64,000 nt of DNA from Paracoccaceae bacterium (GTDB lineage: Bacteria; Pseudomonadota; Alphaproteobacteria; Rhodobacterales; Rhodobacteraceae): contig REBU01000041.1 in the NCBI GenBank assembly GCA_007692585.1, positions 1-64,000 of the forward strand, given 5' to 3'. How positions within the stretch are numbered: position 1 is the first letter of the stretch; every line of letters begins with the position of its first letter. A program made the position numbers and the translations under genes. Below are positions 365 through 12,104 of this stretch, piece by piece. Below the pieces are notes generated by a model. It ran no database searches and was not told the DNA's origin. It saw only the letters and a program-made list of their open reading frames with translations.

Positions 365-2626
365 TCATCTCGCAAGCGTTTGATCGGCAGCGTCCAACGC
401 GAGAAGGGCGCGCGCGGCCGTCAGTTCTTCGTGCATGTGATCCAGCATCCTCTCAACCGTCGCCACAGATGCACTGTCCGCGCGCAAGGCTTCCGCCTGC
501 CGACCGGACGCTTCCAGGCCAAGGGTAAGCGCGGCCCCTTTCAGCGTATGCAATTCGATATCGAGCGCAGTGGTGTCAGGAATGGCGATGGCATCCAGAA
601 GTTTGCGCCGGCTCTCGGGCAAGGAGGCCTCAAACCGTTGCAGCAACCCATTCACCTTGACGCGGCCGAGCGTTGCTGCAAGGTCACGGAATTGCTGGCT
701 GATGCTGACCGTGCCGCCATCCGGCACCGGCTGATGACCTGCCATCGCGTCGGGGGCTATGGCCGGGCTTGGCTCATGGGCGATGACGGGCGCCGGATCG
801 CGCGGCCTGATCTCGCGCAACACAGACACGAGACGATCAAGGTCGATGGGCTTTGACAGAAAATCATTCATGCCCGCCTCCGCGCACATCTTCCGATCCT
901 CTGCCGAAGCGTTGGCGGTCACGGCAATGATGGGCAGGCTGTTGCCTTGCGCCCGGATCTGGCGCGCTGCGTCCGTGCCCGACAGGACAGGCATCTGCAT
1001 GTCCATCAGAACGACATCCAGACCGCCTTCGGCAACCCGCGCGACCGCTTCAAGACCGTTGGTGGCAATGCACGCGGTGTGACCCAAGTGTTCCAGCAAA
1101 TCGATCAGGATTTCGCGGTTGATCGGGTTGTCTTCCACCACCAGAACGCGCAGCGGCGCAAGATCCGGGCTGGACGGCCCCGCCGGGCGCGCCTGAGAGC
1201 CGATGGCCGCAGGCTCCGCACTGGCAGGGCCGATGATGCGAACAGGCAGGTCGAACCAGAATGTGCTGCCGACGCCAACAGTGCTTTCGACCCCGATCTC
1301 CCCCCCCAGCGCCTTGACGATCCGGCGTGAAATCGCAAGCCCCAGGCCCGTTCCGCCGAATTGGCGCGCGTAGGAGCCGTCGATCTGGCGAAACTCTTCG
1401 AAGATCACTTTCTGATCTTCCTCAGATATGCCGATGCCGGTATCGGTCACCTCGACCCGCAAAAGATCCGGTCCATGCAAGTGACCAGAAAGCGTCACCT
1501 GCCCGGCGCGTGTGAATTTCAGCGCATTGCCCATCAGATTGACGATGACCTGACGCAGGCGCTTCGGATCTGTTTCGACGTCAAACGGCGGTAGGCCGAC
1601 ATCGAGGACAATGCCTGTCGCCTCAGCGCGGGTCTCAAAAGCCGAGCGGATCAGGTCCGCAATGCCGGGAAGGCTCACAGCCTCGCTGGAAAATTCGAGC
1701 CCAAAGGATTCCAGTTTCGAAAAATCGAGGACATCATTGATCACATCGAGCAGAAGCTGCCCAGAGTTGCGGATGGTCATCAGACGGCGGGCCTGATCGG
1801 GACGCATATCGCTCACGCCAAGCAATTCGGTGGATGCAAGGATGCCGTTCAGGGGCGTGCGGATCTCGTGGCTCATCGTGGCGAGGAAGGTGGATTTCGC
1901 CTGACTGGCCGCCCGCGCCCGCATCGCCTGTCTGTGACTGCGCTCTTGCAGATGCGCCATCCGCCGATGCGCGCGACGCAGATGCGTCACTTGCAACGCA
2001 AGGATCGCACCAATGCCCAGAAAAGCCAGGACAAGCAGTCCACCGCTGGCCCCAAGGCGATCGACAATATATTGCCGCTCGGCACGCTCCTCGACGCGCA
2101 GCAGGTTCATTGCGTGGTTTGTCTTCAGGACCAGGTCCGCGTGGCGCTCGCGGATATGCTCGAAAGTGGGATAAAGGGTGCGAAGCGCGCTGAAGTAATC
2201 CTCTGACCCGGGTGCAAGTGCATCGATCCGATCTGCGAGGCTATGGACCAGCCTCGCGGTGCTGCTGGCGAGCGTCCCAAGCTCGTTGGTTCCGCGCAAA
2301 TCGATCAGAAAGGCCCCGCCTTCAAGCAGCGTCGCCCGGCTGTAGAGAATGTCATAGGCGCGGATCAGGTCATTATGCAGCGCCGTATCTTGCGTGCGGA
2401 TCGCCAGATCCGACAGATGCAGCAATGTATGCGAATGCCGGTCGGCCTGAAACACCGCCCACATGGCATCTTCGCGCACACGCGTGTCCATCGCGCGATC
2501 CGCTTCAAGCAGCTTCGCAAACAGCACCACCCAGGCGGTCATGAAGGCCAACGCGATGCCGCCGAGCAGGACGAGGCCCTGCGTCATCCGTCGTGTGGAA
2601 AACGCAGCACCCCGTCGGCTGATCAC
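365..2626 (-). CDS. Hybrid sensor histidine kinase (TM sensor region, HisKA, HATPase, REC, HPt)
   Basis: Motifs FLATMSHEIRTPLNGI (H box), GTGLGLAISRRIV (G2 box), REC domain VLVVEDNPINREI...VLMDMQMPVLSG, C-terminal HPt-like ELHTLKGAALTLG. Confidence 0.93.
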   Translation of the reverse strand: MISRRGAAFSTRRMTQGLVLLGGIALAFMTAWVVLFAKLLEADRAMDTRVREDAMWAVFQADRHSHTLLHLSDLAIRTQDTALHNDLIRAYDILYSRATLLEGGAFLIDLRGTNELGTLASSTARLVHSLADRIDALAPGSEDYFSALRTLYPTFEHIRERHADLVLKTNHAMNLLRVEERAERQYIVDRLGASGGLLVLAFLGIGAILALQVTHLRRAHRRMAHLQERSHRQAMRARAASQAKSTFLATMSHEIRTPLNGILASTELLGVSDMRPDQARRLMTIRNSGQLLLDVINDVLDFSKLESFGLEFSSEAVSLPGIADLIRSAFETRAEATGIVLDVGLPPFDVETDPKRLRQVIVNLMGNALKFTRAGQVTLSGHLHGPDLLRVEVTDTGIGISEEDQKVIFEEFRQIDGSYARQFGGTGLGLAISRRIVKALGGEIGVESTVGVGSTFWFDLPVRIIGPASAEPAAIGSQARPAGPSSPDLAPLRVLVVEDNPINREILIDLLEHLGHTACIATNGLEAVARVAEGGLDVVLMDMQMPVLSGTDAARQIRAQGNSLPIIAVTANASAEDRKMCAEAGMNDFLSKPIDLDRLVSVLREIRPRDPAPVIAHEPSPAIAPDAMAGHQPVPDGGTVSISQQFRDLAATLGRVKVNGLLQRFEASLPESRRKLLDAIAIPDTTALDIELHTLKGAALTLGLEASGRQAEALRADSASVATVERMLDHMHEELTAARALLALDAADQTLAR

Positions 2627-3147
2627 GGATGAACCTCAATCGCCTTCACCTGCCAGACAGACCGCGAGAAATAGAGCTCATTGAACAGATCCGGGTTCTC
2701 GTCGAACGGGTAAATGACAAAGAGCGGGCCCTTGTCGCGCACAGACATGGGCGCATCATTCTGGCGCGATGCCAGAATGACCGGGTTGTCATAGAGATCA
2801 GCGACGGGAATTTCGACCGCGTAATCATTGATCGCGACCACCCGCAGCGTTCCGCCCTCGGCACCGACAAGTTCCAGCAGATCGGCGATCTGCGGCCCGG
2901 TGAATGTCTGGACGCCCTCATGCCACGGGGTCGCCGTGACAGTTTCGCGCTGTGGCAGCGCATCGAGCATATCCATGTCGAAACGGGCAAGCGGGCCATC
3001 ATTGGTGTTCGTGATGGCCCCACCGATTTCAAGAACAGGCGATCCGACAGGCGAGGACAGGGCTTCGGCCGCCGCGAGCGGCGCGGAAAGGGCCGCGGCG
3101 AACAATCCCGCAGTGACACTCAGCGCGACTGATTTCAAAAACTTCAT
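2623..3147 (-). CDS. Exported small oxidoreductase molybdopterin-binding-fold protein
   Basis: N-terminal signal peptide MKFLKSVALSVTAGLFAAALSAPLAAA; GAITNTNDG...FDMDMLDALPQ...TPWHEGVQTFTGPQIADLLELVGA pattern typical of the small SUOX-like domain; 4-bp overlap with the downstream kinase. Confidence 0.7.
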   Translation of the reverse strand: MKFLKSVALSVTAGLFAAALSAPLAAAEALSSPVGSPVLEIGGAITNTNDGPLARFDMDMLDALPQRETVTATPWHEGVQTFTGPQIADLLELVGAEGGTLRVVAINDYAVEIPVADLYDNPVILASRQNDAPMSVRDKGPLFVIYPFDENPDLFNELYFSRSVWQVKAIEVHP

Positions 3148-3200
3148 GGTCTGGGTCTCCTTTTTTTGTGTTTTGGGTCAAGTTCAGGGGGAATCCGGTA

Positions 3201-5504
3201 TCAGCTGGCCTGCGGTTCGCGCATCGAGGGCTCTGAGAGGGACGTCGTATCCAGCCATGACAGCATGGCGGCGATGTTGTCGCGCCCGATGGGCTTGGCG
3301 ATGCAGTCGTCGAAGCCCGCATCGAGATAGCCTGCGACCTGCTCGGGCCGGGCATTCGCACTCACAGCGCAGGCAAAGATGCGCGGCAGATCGCCCGCGG
3401 CTTCGCGGTGCCGGATTTCGCGCATGACATCCGTCCCTGCGAGGCGCGGCATGTTGATATCGAGCAAAAGCGCATCGAAGCGATGCGGCTCCCAGATCTC
3501 CAACGCCTCGGCACCGTCCTCGCAAACAGTGACTGCCGCACCGAGCCGCTCCAGGATCATCGACAGGATCTTTCGATTGGCGTGATTGTCATCGGCCACC
3601 AGGATGTGACGGCGCTGCAAGCTGATTTTTTGCGGCCGTTCAGCCGGGAGCACCGCATCGCAAGCCGGCAGTGGCAACGAAAACCGGAAGGTCGCGCCCG
3701 CGCCGATGCGTGAGCTGACGCTGATCTCGCCCTGCATGGCCGTTATCAGGCCGCGCGTGATGCTCAGGCCAAGCCCGCTGCCCTCGCTCCGTCTGGCGAT
3801 GCCGTCATCGAGCTGAACAAACGCCGCAAAAATGCGCTCCGCATCCGCCAGACCAATCCCGGTATCGGCAACTTCGACCTGCAGCGCGTCCGCAGTCGTC
3901 AGGTCCAGACGTATCTCGATGCTGCCCGCTTCGGTGAACTTTATCGCATTGCAGACAAGGTTCTTGAGGATTTGCCGCACGCGCACCGGATCCCCGATGC
4001 GATAGGCGCCGCCTTGCCCAGTCACGGAAAGCGTGAGCGCGAGCGATTTGGCCTCTGCCGCGGTGCTGAACAGCGTGCGCACCTCCTCGCAGAGCGCGAC
4101 CATGGAAAACGGAGATTGCGCAAGCGTCAATTGACCGCTTTCGATCTGCACCTGATCCAGAACATCGCTGAAAACCGAGCTCAAGCGGCCCGCCGCGTCA
4201 CGGATCGTGGCGAGATGCGCCTGCCGCTCCGCAGGGTTTTCAACGCTCTCCAGCAACTCGGCAAGCCCCGAGATTGCGGTTATTGGTGTCTGGAGTTCAT
4301 GGCCCATCATGGCGAGAAAAGACGATTTCGCACGTTCCGCTTGCCGGGCCGCATCGCGCGCGGCGACAATCTCGCTGACATCGCTGCCAAAGCCGCGAAA
4401 GCCCTCGAACGCCCCGGATGTCGTATAAAACGGTATGACGCTGGTCTGGACCCACAACACGCTCTGATCCGGCAGCGTCACCATGACAGGCAGGTTGCTC
4501 AGCGCTTTTCGCGGCAGAAGTCGCTCATGCAGCGACGCCGGGCCCCGGCCCTCGTCAATGACGATCTTGCCGCCTATTTGCTCAAATGTCAGGCCGTAAA
4601 GCTCCTGAGGCGTTGTCGATAAAGCATCGCTGACGGCACGCGAGACATAAACAAGCCGCAGATCACTATCGAGTTCGAAAAACCAGGCAGCGCTCAGTTG
4701 CGCAATATCGGAGAGGCGCGCGTCGATGCGATCGCGCGAATTTCTGGCCTCGACCTCGCGTGAGATGTCAAACTGGGTGGCGACGATATAGCGCGCATCC
4801 GCGCCCGGCCCTGGCACGGGGCGCAAGTCCAGCTGATTCCAGAATTCTTCGCCATGACGCCGACGATTGCGCAGTCGAAACTGACCGGCAAGCCGACCTG
4901 CAACCGTGCGTCGCAGGTCATCGCGGACCTGCGCGCCGGGGGGCTCGGCATTGAGAAAGCGGCAATTCTGGGCGAGCACTTCCTTCCGGCTGTATCCCGA
5001 AAGGCGCTCGAAAGCCGCATTCACATAGATCAGCGGCGTTTCGGGCTGGGTCGCGTCGCCGATCGCAATACTTGCCGTGGACGCCTCGATCACGGCATCA
5101 AGAAGCGCTTCACGCTCTGCCGCGGCGCACTGTGCGCGGCGCATGGCGAGCAGGTTGCCGACACGCAGGCGCAATTCCTCGATATTCACCGGCTTGGTCA
5201 GAAAGTCCGTCGCACCTGCGCGGATCGCGTCAAGCCGCACAGCGATATCATTGTCGCCCGTCAGCATGACCAGGGGCACATGGCGGTAGCGTTCTTTCGC
5301 GCGCAGTTTGCGGATCGCGTCGATCCCGTTGCCATCGGGCAGCCGGTAGTCGAAGATCATCAGATCAAACAGGTGGTCCTCGCATCCGGCAAAGGCACCC
5401 CCGACACTGTCAAACCCGTGTACAACGCAACCGTCAATGACCTCCAGCGTGGACAGAAGCACGCTGAGGATAACTTCATTGTCTTCGACCACGGCGATCA
5501 GCAA
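3201..5504 (-). CDS. Hybrid histidine kinase with N-terminal REC, LOV-type PAS, second PAS, HisKA/HATPase and C-terminal REC
   Basis: REC (VEDNEVILSVLLSTLE...FDYRLPDGNG), LOV signature NAAFERLSGYSRKEVLAQNCRFLN...FWNQLDLRPV...ATQFDIS, H box FLAMMGHELQTPITAI, G2 GSGLGLSITRGL, C-terminal REC ILVADDNHANRKI. Confidence 0.92.
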   Translation of the reverse strand: MLIAVVEDNEVILSVLLSTLEVIDGCVVHGFDSVGGAFAGCEDHLFDLMIFDYRLPDGNGIDAIRKLRAKERYRHVPLVMLTGDNDIAVRLDAIRAGATDFLTKPVNIEELRLRVGNLLAMRRAQCAAAEREALLDAVIEASTASIAIGDATQPETPLIYVNAAFERLSGYSRKEVLAQNCRFLNAEPPGAQVRDDLRRTVAGRLAGQFRLRNRRRHGEEFWNQLDLRPVPGPGADARYIVATQFDISREVEARNSRDRIDARLSDIAQLSAAWFFELDSDLRLVYVSRAVSDALSTTPQELYGLTFEQIGGKIVIDEGRGPASLHERLLPRKALSNLPVMVTLPDQSVLWVQTSVIPFYTTSGAFEGFRGFGSDVSEIVAARDAARQAERAKSSFLAMMGHELQTPITAISGLAELLESVENPAERQAHLATIRDAAGRLSSVFSDVLDQVQIESGQLTLAQSPFSMVALCEEVRTLFSTAAEAKSLALTLSVTGQGGAYRIGDPVRVRQILKNLVCNAIKFTEAGSIEIRLDLTTADALQVEVADTGIGLADAERIFAAFVQLDDGIARRSEGSGLGLSITRGLITAMQGEISVSSRIGAGATFRFSLPLPACDAVLPAERPQKISLQRRHILVADDNHANRKILSMILERLGAAVTVCEDGAEALEIWEPHRFDALLLDINMPRLAGTDVMREIRHREAAGDLPRIFACAVSANARPEQVAGYLDAGFDDCIAKPIGRDNIAAMLSWLDTTSLSEPSMREPQAS

Positions 5505-6574
5505 GTTGGCATCCTACATGCACTGGCGTGACAACAATGCAGTGCGGAGGTTAAGATTTCTTTGCTGCACGCCCGCGATTTCAGTCGTGTCTGCTCCGTT
5601 CCCTGAAGCGCCGCGCGCAGTAAGCCGGAAAACGCCTATCCACCCTCACCAGAGCACCCATTGCGGGCGCTCTGCGTGTTCTGCTGTGCGCGCATGTTGC
5701 GATGGGCTTTGCCAAACGCTGCTCACGCTGCCAGATATGACAAGCCCTTTGCCATCGGCTGCCGGGCTGATGAATCTGTCGCAGATCGCCTTTCCCGCTT
5801 GCCTATGGATGGCGACTGCAGGTTTTTTCGCAACGGCGTCTTGGGGCTGACGCTGCTTTTCATCCTGATCCTCGTGATTAACGGGTTGGCGTGTCAAAAT
5901 CCGGTGACGGGGGCGCGCGGTCCTGCATGCACAAGGGTCTGCCCTTGCTGTGCGTGCGCACCTGACGGCAGGTCATATCGCGTGCCCCCGCCGCGATCTC
6001 TCCGGTAGAGTGTACAGAAGAATGTCTTGCGCTGACATGACGGAATGCAGGAAGCTTTCGCCGCATGTTTGGTTTGCTTGCCAATCTGATCGCGCTCCGA
6101 TGGTCCCACTGCCTCGGGCGACCTGGGCCAAACCTCATCCCGGAATGCTGGTGAAAATGCAGCGTCCTGGACGTCTGGTGTCAAATCTCTAACGCAGCGG
6201 TCGTCGTTTTTGTCCCGATTCTCAACGGACTTTCTCGTTCAAGCCATTGCCCATAAATAAAAAAATGAAACAAAGGCGCAAGGTCAGGCCGGAGGCAGCA
6301 CTCTAACAAACTCCTAACGTCAGATTGGCGATAAATCGGCATCCGGAATATGCCTGGAGGCCCAAGTGTCTGTTCCCGACGACCTCGTTGCATTGCTTAC
6401 AGGCTCGCCCGATCAGCGGACGAAGATGGCTGGACGGGGCCAACGTGTCGCAGCGCATGACCCCGGAGGCAGCATGGCGACTTGGGGGACACCATGACGC
6501 TGCCGGAGCGCATGCGCGTCGTCGCGCAGATGCGCAAGACCCGTTTCTCTCCCCGTTTTCTGAAAGGCGAGACC

Positions 6575-7157: not shown

Positions 7158-8600
7158 TTAACGTGCGAGAGCCAGCAGCCCGGTGACATCCAGATGCGTC
7201 TCGACATGGGCAGCGAGCGCGTCGAGCGTCTCCGTCACGCGCGCGCTGTAATTGGTCTGCGCGGCCACGCCGAACCCGGCCAGCCAGGCCGCGCGAAAGG
7301 CGTCATCGCTGAACATGCCATGCAGGTAACTGCCCTGAACCTGCCCTGTGACATCGCAGGCCCCTTCGGGCTGACCCGCCACCTGCGCGAACGGGCGCGC
7401 GCGGTCTGGCCCGTCGGTCTGGCCAAGATGAATCTCGTAGCCGCTGAATATCTGCCCCGAGGCCATATGCCGCGCGCTGACCCGGCTGAGCCGCTTGTCG
7501 GGGCCCATCACGGTCGCGACCTCCAGCAGCCCCAGACCAGGGTCACGCCCGGGCGGTCCTTCCAGACCTTCGGGATCATCGACCCATTGCCCGAGCATCT
7601 GATACCCGCCGCAAATCCCCAGCACATGGCCGCCGCGGCGCACATGCGCGGCGATATCGACGTCCCAGCCCTGCGCGCGCAGAAATGCCAGATCCCCCCG
7701 CGTCGATTTTGTGCCGGGGAGAATGACCAGATCCGCATCCCCGGGCACCGGCTGGCCGGGGGGCAGCATGGTCAGGCGCAGCCCCGGCTCTTGCGCCAGC
7801 GGGTCGAGATCGTCGAAATTCGCGATCCGGCTGAAGTGCAGGCAAACTACATGCAGCCCTTCCGTCCGCCGGGGTGCGTCTATGTCAAGCGCGTCTTCGG
7901 CAGGAAGCCGCCATGCATCCCCAAACCATGGCAGCACACCATATCCACGCCACGCGGTGCGGGTCTCGATCCAGCGATACCCGTCATCGAACAGGCGGGG
8001 ATCCCCGCGAAACTTGTTGATCACGAAGCCTGCGATCAGGGCGGCGTCATCGGGGTCGATCACCGCCTGCGTGCCCACCAACTGCGCGATGACACCGCCG
8101 CGGTCGATATCGCCCACCAGCACGACCGGCACATTGGCGGCACGCGCAAAGCCCATATTGGCAATGTCGCCGGCGCGCAGATTGATCTCTGCGGGACTGC
8201 CTGCGCCTTCGATGATCACCAGATCATGCGCCGCGCATAGTCGCTGAAAGCTGTCGAGAACGGCCTCCATCAGGCGGGGTTTCAGCGCCGGATAGTCGCG
8301 CGCCCGCGTCGAGGTCAACCGTTTGCCCTGCACGATAACCTGCGCGCCCGTCTCCGTTTCGGGCTTCAGCAGAACCGGGTTCATGTCTGTCATCGGCTCT
8401 AGCCCGCAGGCCAGCGCCTGCAGCGCCTGAGCACGCCCGATTTCGCCCCCGTCAGCAGTCACGGCGGCATTGTTTGACATGTTCTGCGGCTTGAACGGGG
8501 CCACGCGCAGTCCACGCGCCCGCGCCGCGCGACACAGACCCGCCACCAGCATGGACTTCCCGACATTGCTGCCAGCGCCCTGAATCATCAAGGCGACCAT
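7158..8600 (-). CDS. cobQ: Cobyric acid synthase
   Basis: [62 protein letters not shown]; glutamine amidotransferase triad region [11 protein letters not shown]; start moved to ATG at 8600. Confidence 0.96.
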
Positions 8601-8647
8601 GGCATCCCCCCTTGCGGGGTGGCGGAGCGCAGATGTGCGCCTCCGGC

Positions 8648-8822
8648 GGGGATATTTGGGCAAGGATGAAATGACATGGGGCGGCACCGCGCCTCGGGCC
8701 GGTCAACCGGGGGAGGCGCGGTGCTTTCACCCTTGGCGGTCATCGGGATCCCTCCCTGTACCGCGCGATGATCGTCGCAAAAAATGGTAAACAATGTCTT
8801 TTCATCCTTGCCCAAATATCCC
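8648..8822. repeat. Inverted-repeat pair in the cobO-cobQ intergenic region
   Basis: gggatatttgggcaaggatgaaa (8648-8671) and its reverse complement tttcatccttgcccaaatatccc (8800-8822), read directly. Confidence 0.8.
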
Positions 8823-8870
8823 GGGGGGCGCGACCGCAGGGAGCGGGGGGCAGCGCCCCCCAACCCACGC

Positions 8871-9479
8871 TCAGAACTCGATGCCATGCTGCGCTTTGAT
8901 CCCATCGCGGAAGGGATGCTTGACCATCGTCATTTCAGTGACCAGATCGGCGGCCTCGATCAATTCGGGCTTGGCGTTGCGCCCGGTCAGGCAAACATGC
9001 GTCATTGCCGGTTTGCGTGTCTGCAGGAAATCCACGACTTCGTCGATATCGAGATAATCGTAGCGCAATGCGATGTTAATTTCGTCGAGCAGCACGAAGC
9101 GGATCTCTGGGTCCAGAATCTGCTCCTGTGCCAGACGCCAACCGTTTTGGGCGGCCGCAATGTCGCGCTCGCGGTCCTGGGTTTCCCAGGTGAACCCTTC
9201 GCCCGACACGAAGAACCGGCAGTCTTTGGCGTGGCGCTCGCGCAGGAATGTTTTTTCGCCAGTGGCCCAGTTGCCCTTGATGAATTGCACCACCGCGCAG
9301 GGGATCCCATGCGCGATGCAGCGCATGATCATCCCGAAACCGGAAGAGGATTTGCCCTTCCCAGAGCCCGTATGCACGATGATCAGGCCCTTTTCTTCGG
9401 TCTTCGTCTTCATGATCTCGTCTCGCGCGGCCTTGATGCGCTTCATCTTCTCATTGTGACGGCGGGTCAGTTCATCCAT
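8871..9479 (-). CDS. cobO: Cob(I)yrinic acid a,c-diamide adenosyltransferase
   Basis: GLIIVHTGSGKGKSSSGFGMIMRCIAHG P-loop and LLDEINIALRYDYLDIDEVVDFL motifs of CobO/BtuR. Confidence 0.95.
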   Translation of the reverse strand: MDELTRRHNEKMKRIKAARDEIMKTKTEEKGLIIVHTGSGKGKSSSGFGMIMRCIAHGIPCAVVQFIKGNWATGEKTFLRERHAKDCRFFVSGEGFTWETQDRERDIAAAQNGWRLAQEQILDPEIRFVLLDEINIALRYDYLDIDEVVDFLQTRKPAMTHVCLTGRNAKPELIEAADLVTEMTMVKHPFRDGIKAQHGIEF

Positions 9480-9657
9480 CGGTCTTCCCTTTATAGGTGT
9501 GTCACGGCCTTGGCACTGGTCTGTGTGCGGGGTCGCCTGGCAAGAGGAAAGGAAAGGCGCGAGGTTGCTTTGTCAACCCACGCGCCGCTGCCCCCGTGTC
9601 CGAGTTCGTGTCCGTGCCGACGACATCAGGCAGCGCCACGCCGATGCGTTGGCGCGT

Positions 9658-9682
9658 CCCGCCGGTCAGACCGACCGGCGGG
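9658..9682 (-). terminator. GC-rich hairpin between the COG0523 gene and cobO
   Basis: 10-bp perfect stem cccgccggtc/gaccggcggg with 5-nt loop, just downstream of the minus-strand COG0523 gene; no clear U tract. Confidence 0.4.
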
Positions 9683-9725
9683 GGGGGGATCCGCGCGCCC
9701 TTGGGCTGTCTTTGGGCGAAACCTC

Positions 9726-10934
9726 TTACCTCGCCCCCCAGCGCGGAAACGGGTCGGGGAGTTGCGTCCAGTCACCCGGCGTGAAATCGCCCGCATGCAT
9801 CAGCGCCGCATTGAGCCGCGCGCAGATCGCCTCGCGGTCCATCTCGACCCCGATAAAAACAATCTCCTGCCGCCGGTCGCCCCAAGGCTCAACCCAGTTC
9901 TTCGCGATTTCGGCCTGCGCATCTGGGTGCTGTGGCAGCCGCTCCTCCGGGACCGAGGCCCACCAGCGGCCCAGCGGCGAAACCGAGGACATGGCACCTG
10001 CAAGGCTGAACTCGGCGGCCCAATCGGGCCGCGTAGCGATCCAGAAATGCCCTTTCGCGCGGATCACACCGGGCAAGGGGCCGTTCAGCACCTCATGCAC
10101 GCGGGCGGGGTGGAAGGGCGCGCGGGCATGAAAAACGAAGCTCGTGACGCCGTATTCCTCGGTCTCGGGCGTGTGATTGGCGAAACCGTAAAGCTCTTTC
10201 GCCCACATCGGATGTTCCTGTGCGCGCTCGAAATCAAACCGGCCTGTGTCAAGGATGGCATCCGAGGCGACATCCGAATGCGTGGTCTCGATGATCTTGG
10301 CATCGCCGTTCAGCGCCCGGATGATCTTGCGCGCGGCATCGACCCGCGCGGGGCCAGCATCCGCGCATTTGTTCAGGATGATGACATTGGCAAATTCGAT
10401 CTGCTCGGTCAGCAGCGTGACAAGACTGCGGTCATCCTCATCGCCCAAGGACTCGCCCCGGTCACGCAGGAAATCATGGCTGGAGAAATCCTTGAGCAGG
10501 TTCACCGCATCCACCACCGTCACCATCGTATCCAGCCGCGCCACATCCGACAGGCTGGCGTCATTCTCATCGCGGAAATCGAACGTCGCGGCGACAGGCA
10601 GCGGCTCGGAAATGCCGGTCGACTCGATCAGCAGATAGTCAAACCGCCCCTCGGACGCCAGCCGCCGGACCTCTTGCAGCAGATCATCGCGCAAAGTGCA
10701 GCAGATGCAGCCATTGCTCATCTCGACCAGCTTTTCGTCCGCGCGCGACAGCTCTGCCCCCTCGCGGATCAGATCAGCGTCGATATTGACCTCGGACATG
10801 TCATTGACGATCACCGCCACGCGGCGGCCTTCGCGGTTGTTCAGAACGCGGTTGAGAAGCGTCGTCTTGCCTGCGCCAAGAAAGCCGGACAGAACCGTGA
10901 CAGGCAGGCGTTTATCCTGAATATTCATATGCAC
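9726..10934 (-). CDS. COG0523 GTP-binding metallochaperone, ZigA/ZagA-like
   Basis: [61 protein letters not shown] (CxCC), NKCD-like LNKCADA; CobW C-terminal domain. Confidence 0.9.
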
Positions 10935-10997
10935 CTCGGCGATGGTTGGAATTGCGCAACTGCGTCGTCTGCGCGGAGATTTCAGTCGGGACGGCCA

Positions 10998-12104
10998 TCA
11001 GGCCAGCTGATCCTGAGCCGGGATTGCAAGCCCCAGCGCCTCTGGGCCGTGGCGCAGCAAGGCAAGGCTTTCTTCCAGCTCCGCGCGCGGCATATCCCGC
11101 GCGATGATGACGACGCGACTTGTCGGCTCTGTCCGGGGCAGGTGCGTCAGGGGCACGGGCGGGTCGAACAGGGATTGCACGCCATGAAAGGCGAAAGGGT
11201 GATCGCAACCTTCGATATACGCGATCCCCTTCATGCGCAGGATCTTGTCACCGCGCAGGGCGATCAGCGTATCAAGCCAGAAATCGAAGCGCTCGGCCGG
11301 GATCGGATCGGTCAGCGTGATCGAGGCTGTGGTGATCCTGCCATCGCGGGTGTGGTGCGACGCGGCAGGCTGCGCCGGCGCAGCTGTGCCGGGGCGTGTC
11401 AGACCCGACAATCCTTCCAGCGGCGCGGGGGCAGGCCGGGTTTGCGGGGCCGCCAGCCAGTCCAGCGCCTGCCGCGGCGATGTGGCGCGGCGCAGGCGGC
11501 CTGGCCCCAGAACGGCCTGTGCAGGCACCGTGCCTTTGTCCGCCGTCAGGCGCGGCGCGCCGGGGTTCAGCTGGTCCAGCCGCAATTGCAGCGCCGCGAT
11601 GGTGCGGGCATCCGCCAGATCGGATTTGGTCACGATGATCCGGTCGGCCATGGCGACCTGCGCCTGCGCTTCCAGATGCTGATCCAGCGTCGCGGTGGCG
11701 AGAACCGCATCCACGGCGGTCACGATCCCGTCGAAGACATAATTTGCGGACAGCACCGGATCGATCAGCAGTGTGTGATGGATCGGGCCGGGATCTGCCA
11801 GGCCAGTCGTCTCGATCACCAGCCGGTCGAAGGCCAGTTCCTGGCGCAGGCGCCGGGCGAAAAGCGCGCTCAGCGTCTTGGACAGATCGCCCCGGATCGA
11901 ACAGCAGATGCACCCTGCAGGCATCAGGACAACATCCTCGGCGGCTGTTTCGATCAGATCATGGTCGAGCCCGGCCTCGCCGAATTCATTGACCACAACC
12001 GCAATCCGCCCGGCCGCCGGATCGCGCAGAAGGTGATTGAGGATCGTGGTCTTGCCCGCCCCCAGAAAGCCGGTAAGCAACGTGACAGGGATCGGATCAT
12101 GCAT
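10998..12104 (-). CDS. COG0523 GTP-binding metallochaperone, second paralogue (YjiA/CobW-like)
   Basis: [70 protein letters not shown]. Confidence 0.9.
   Translation of the reverse strand: MHDPIPVTLLTGFLGAGKTTILNHLLRDPAAGRIAVVVNEFGEAGLDHDLIETAAEDVVLMPAGCICCSIRGDLSKTLSALFARRLRQELAFDRLVIETTGLADPGPIHHTLLIDPVLSANYVFDGIVTAVDAVLATATLDQHLEAQAQVAMADRIIVTKSDLADARTIAALQLRLDQLNPGAPRLTADKGTVPAQAVLGPGRLRRATSPRQALDWLAAPQTRPAPAPLEGLSGLTRPGTAAPAQPAASHHTRDGRITTASITLTDPIPAERFDFWLDTLIALRGDKILRMKGIAYIEGCDHPFAFHGVQSLFDPPVPLTHLPRTEPTSRVVIIARDMPRAELEESLALLRHGPEALGLAIPAQDQLA

Follow-up and report, generated by a model that had tools for sequence, protein, structure and literature searches.

The best sequence and fold matches to the domain studied here, at about 38-40% identity, are the short LOV proteins PpSB1-LOV and W619_1-LOV (PDB 3SW1, 5J3W and 5LUV). 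These proteins stand alone and carry the canonical Gln after CRFL, whereas here the LOV domain lies inside a REC-LOV-PAS-HK-REC protein and the Gln is replaced by Asn. LOV domains joined to a histidine kinase, as here, are found in Brucella LOV-HK, YF1 and SB2F1, and Brucella LOV-HK also has the LOV-PAS order seen here (6PPS and 6PH3 were among the Foldseek matches). What sets the present protein apart from these three is a HisKA hybrid architecture, with one receiver at each end and the LOV preceded by a REC; Brucella LOV-HK is an HWE kinase. Nearer in taxonomy are the Rhodobacterales GAF-LOV-PAS-PAS-HK kinases with a LuxR-type regulator (L012-L021 and L041), whose LOV belongs to the same clade (100/99) and likewise lacks Gln454. 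They differ in a GAF-type or unassigned N-terminus in place of REC, another kinase core, an often present LuxR neighbor and the absence of PruR.

The neighboring genes resemble a different group of systems. In the accessible part of PMC13259868, pterins are described as redox-active signals, pairs of PruR and a kinase of this type are named PruR-DTB systems, and the hallmarks of a DTB kinase are a DcpA-like periplasmic domain with a WX7E motif and a gene beside that of PruR. As in those systems, a PruR-like protein is followed here by a kinase with an alignable periplasmic domain; here, however, the motif is WX7H, the kinase carries an Hpt at its C-terminus, and the LOV hybrid kinase is encoded by a third gene upstream. 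That part of the paper mentions no LOV partner and no WX7H subclass, and a literature search of limited reach found no earlier link between LOV and PruR. In our view the protein makes a good LOV hybrid kinase, and we found no prior description of such a setting. If the circuit proposed below is right, it would tie blue-light sensing to a recently described pterin signaling pathway.

The window, i.e., the whole 64,000-nucleotide stretch analyzed, comprises positions 1 to 64,000 of contig REBU01000041.1 of a Paracoccaceae bacterium. The features of interest are collected in Table 1. The Rfam scan matched nothing in the window, and the promoter and terminator scan gave counts not above those of shuffled sequence.

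Table 1. Positions of the three genes and their domains in the window.
Feature	Position	Strand	Basis
LOV hybrid histidine kinase, 767 aa, TTG start	3201..5504	-	Pfam; start common to L039 and L040; catalytic motifs present
REC1, N-terminal receiver, residues 1-118, phospho-acceptor D52	5151..5504	-	Pfam; receiver tree
LOV domain, residues 130-250	4755..5117	-	PDB matches, residue table, model and Foldseek, tree
Adduct Cys181 codon (AQNCRFLN)	4962..4964	-	ORF translation, residue table
Second PAS, residues 272-378, not a LOV	4371..4691	-	PAS_4; without significant PDB match
HisKA (H402) and HATPase core, residues 392-613	3666..4331	-	Pfam; motif check
REC2, C-terminal receiver, residues 634-748, D682	3261..3605	-	Pfam; motif check
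PruR-type periplasmic pterin-binding protein (predicted), SUOX-like fold, 174 aa	2623..3147	-	PF00174; 7RKB/7KOS; alignment
DTB-like transmembrane hybrid kinase, C-terminal Hpt; periplasmic WX7H, not WX7E	365..2626	-	Pfam, alignment, motif check
Hpt of DTB-like kinase (H693), proposed phosphodonor to REC1	407..646	-	PF01627; HTLKGAA motif

The first PAS domain of the hybrid kinase

Pfam gave the domain order of the 767-aa protein as REC, PAS_9 (153-248), PAS_4 (272-378), HisKA, HATPase_c and REC. All of the hybrid kinase motifs checked were present (H402, NLVCNAIKF, DTGIGL, GSGLGLS, D52 and D682). The earlier note had read the first PAS domain (PAS1) as a LOV domain, and the peptide on which this reading was based lies at residues ~140-245 of the ORF at 3201-5504 (-), with the Cys at residue 181. 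The AQNCRFLN and FWN segments and the Gln of the I-beta strand (Q244) can all be seen in the translation. LOV-specific checks of sequence and fold supported the assignment. Specifically, a phmmer search of residues 128-262 against the PDB returned PpSB1-type short LOV proteins on top (E = 1e-23), and all of the 60 matches listed were LOV photoreceptors, LOV proteins or LOV-derived constructs. The second PAS domain, used as a control, had no significant match in the PDB. In Foldseek, an AlphaFold2 model (mean pLDDT 89.2) matched LOV structures best.

The loss of residues contacting FMN had been named as grounds for rejecting the assignment, and this is not what was observed. Eight listed residues were retained, N180, C181, R182, R198, N213, N223, L227 and Q244, which correspond to N449, C450, R451, R467, N482, N492, L496 and Q513 in oat LOV2 numbering. 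Only the Gln that ends CRFLQ, Gln454 of oat LOV2, was replaced, by Asn (N185). The flavin contacts described for DsLOV include N71, R73, Q76, R89, N104, N114 and Q135 (PMC4335406), and the PAS1 residues of our residue table correspond to contacts on that list. By sequence and predicted fold, PAS1 is a LOV domain, and the gene very probably encodes a blue-light-sensing kinase.

Replacement of Gln454 was not specific to this protein. In the sampled Cys-bearing LOVs of the two Rhodobacterales kinase families, this position held N, S, T, A or L. Gln did not occur there in any of them, while almost every other LOV domain sampled had it. The Gln-less Rhodobacterales LOVs, which come from many genera, formed one clade in the LOV tree (100/99), and in the sampled sequences the replacement is a mark of this clade. 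A few Cys-bearing LOV-like domains outside the clade also lacked Gln454, and for this reason the missing Gln was not taken as excluding a LOV. The clade may have unusual photocycle properties. The Cys and its NCR surroundings were conserved in every LOV-type member sampled from both families.

Two orthologues (L039 and L040; 89-90% identity) retained both the LOV motif and the in-frame TTG start. Among these three close orthologues, the LOV was the most constrained of the five domains, with the lowest dN/dS (0.07-0.09) in 3/3 comparisons, and is under purifying selection. These observations bear on the possibility that PAS1 no longer binds flavin and that the Gln-to-Asn change is an early step toward the Cys-less PAS1 of relatives; the Asn and a sister group of Cys-less domains in the LOV tree would fit, but this is very improbable given that every other listed contact is retained, dN/dS is very low and the Gln is missing throughout a Cys-bearing clade of many genera.

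The three-gene unit and its proposed circuit

The 174-aa product of the middle gene matched the solved pterin-binding PruR structures 7RKB and 7KOS with E values of about 1e-40. It has a SUOX-like fold, is close to the expected length of about 170 aa and apparently secreted (signal peptide judged by eye), and has a Trp in place of the Mo-ligating Cys and a Tyr at the pterin site, where Tyr or Phe is expected; in the alignment, the Trp and Tyr described for the pterin site of PruR were both retained. An assignment as a molybdopterin enzyme, from PF00174, was dropped in view of the PDB match to PruR. PruR-like proteins were found in 226/397 family genomes searched, and of the 20 additional PruR loci that were fetched, 19 had next to PruR a kinase that matches the DTB-like protein of the window.

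The kinase encoded at 365-2626 had the Pfam domain order HisKA-HATPase-REC-Hpt, and its periplasmic region aligned with those of other PruR-linked kinases. Alignment for the WX7E motif showed it to be absent, with WX7H in its place, and because of this replacement we call the protein DTB-like and not a DTB member, though the domain otherwise aligns. WX7H was present in all ten units that have a REC-PAS-PAS-HK-REC first gene, and WX7E in L133-L135 and L139. The periplasmic motif thus tracks the identity of the first gene, with WX7H accompanying the double-PAS kinase and WX7E accompanying REC-HD-GYP.

Genes for the REC-PAS-PAS-HK-REC kinase, PruR and the DTB-like kinase were adjacent in ten sampled loci (the window, L040, L119, L120, L126, L169, L170, L172, L174 and L177), and in four of these (L170, L172, L174 and L177) the unit was followed by a GAF-PAS-type kinase and a LuxR-type regulator. 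In L133-L135, which are from other genera, a REC-HD-GYP gene occupied the first slot before PruR and DTB. In the receiver tree, REC1 and the receivers of these slot-equivalent proteins formed one clade (96/94); the two share ancestry. Homology between the window and L040 spanned 402-5522, which holds little beyond the three genes; the flanks were not homologous.

We propose that the cytoplasmic LOV hybrid kinase works with the PruR-type protein and the DTB-like Hpt kinase and that light and pterin signals converge on it, a reading to which we give a probability of about 0.62. Blue light would produce a C4a adduct between Cys181 and a bound flavin. By altering the helical spine of LOV, PAS and DHp, this adduct would shift the kinase or phosphatase activity. 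Pterin-loaded PruR would act upon the periplasmic domain of the DTB-like kinase, and the Hpt of that kinase would give phosphate to REC1, which we infer to be its phospho-partner, or drain it. Pterin and blue-light inputs would then meet in one phosphorelay, and a single circuit may in this way respond both to light and to a chemical signal of redox type. No output domain was found in the three genes, and the circuit output would lie outside them. The contig starts 364 nt past the third gene, where the sequence downstream of the unit ends. These points weigh against the proposal, as do the Asn at the Gln454 position and the WX7H motif.

The LOV kinase could instead be genuine and signal alone, next to a PruR-DTB pair that is merely co-transcribed and exchanges no phosphate with it. 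Four loci (L171, L173, L175 and L176) are in its favor, with the kinase present and no PruR/DTB gene within the stretch fetched, and coupling is therefore not obligatory. We consider independent signaling unlikely nonetheless, as the gene order is retained in ten loci, the first-slot receiver has the same origin as the REC-HD-GYP receiver of that slot, and the block conserved between the window and L040 is made up of the three genes.

The three-gene block (402-5522) looks as if it was moved as a cassette, and L039 and L040 differ in their upstream genes. In a plasmid search, the best matches listed were other kinases, all at <60% identity. The earlier note had called the REC-LOV-PAS-HK-REC arrangement uncommon, and our sampling agrees: of the 397 family genomes sampled, only that of the window and G136 had it, and in the genus it was seen in 3/37 genomes, with a match to the kinase in 14/37 (many of the genomes compared are drafts).

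Relatives without the adduct cysteine

C181 was present in the window, L039 and L040, in L119 from another genus, and in L176, which has a GAF-LOV-PAS-HK-REC form. Eleven orthologues had a degenerate PAS1 with no Cys at this site and few flavin contacts, though the C-terminal part of PAS1 still aligned. Most of them lie within the REC-PAS-PAS-HK-REC/PruR/DTB-like unit. Since orthologues manage without the LOV Cys, light is not needed for retention of the unit. With other LOVs as outgroup, the eleven Cys-less PAS1 domains formed one clade (100/98) nested beside the LOV forms, and in a tree built without PAS1 the four REC-LOV carriers grouped together (91/91). The alternative topology, gain of LOV by domain replacement, was 13.75 log units worse. 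In an AU test, such a gain was not rejected (p-AU 0.217), and loss of light sensing is only the preferred reading. The L176 gene (4652-7159) appears to join a GAF-LOV front from one kinase family to the back of the family studied here.

More tentatively, the convergent circuit proposed above could be a dual-input phosphorelay with phosphate exchange between Hpt and REC1 in which the photoreceptor is optional, the Cys having been lost in some lineages and the circuit kept. Comparing orthologous units that have the LOV Cys with those that lack it offers a natural way to see the contribution of light to an otherwise similar circuit.

A LOV that binds flavin but acts chiefly as a redox sensor, light playing an incidental part, would suit a pterin-linked redox circuit, and the Cys-less orthologues are in its favor. 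The redox activity of pterins as signals (accessible part of PMC13259868) is in line with this, as is the description, in the accessible part of PMC4682037, of LOV receptors that lack the adduct Cys and still signal via flavin photoreduction. Against a mainly redox role stand the Cys and NCR, which every LOV-type member of the two families retains, and the strong constraint on the LOV, and we judge such a role to be quite improbable.

Genome context

The genome of the window encodes two photosynthetic reaction-centre proteins of the L/M family (L180 and L181, contig C74). The organism is therefore probably an anoxygenic phototroph, and light is relevant to it for the same reason, which accords with convergence of light and pterin signals on the kinase. 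UDP-glucose/mannose dehydrogenase and RTX genes lay near two loci of related LOV kinases, and these neighbors hint, indirectly, at a link to surface polysaccharide. Upstream of the LOV kinase, cobalamin-related genes (cobQ-like, cobO and two cobW-like) were present at 7158-12104. A second LOV was also found in this genome, a short stand-alone protein with the canonical GRNCRFLQG (L196 322-729; contig C109, about 151621-152028).
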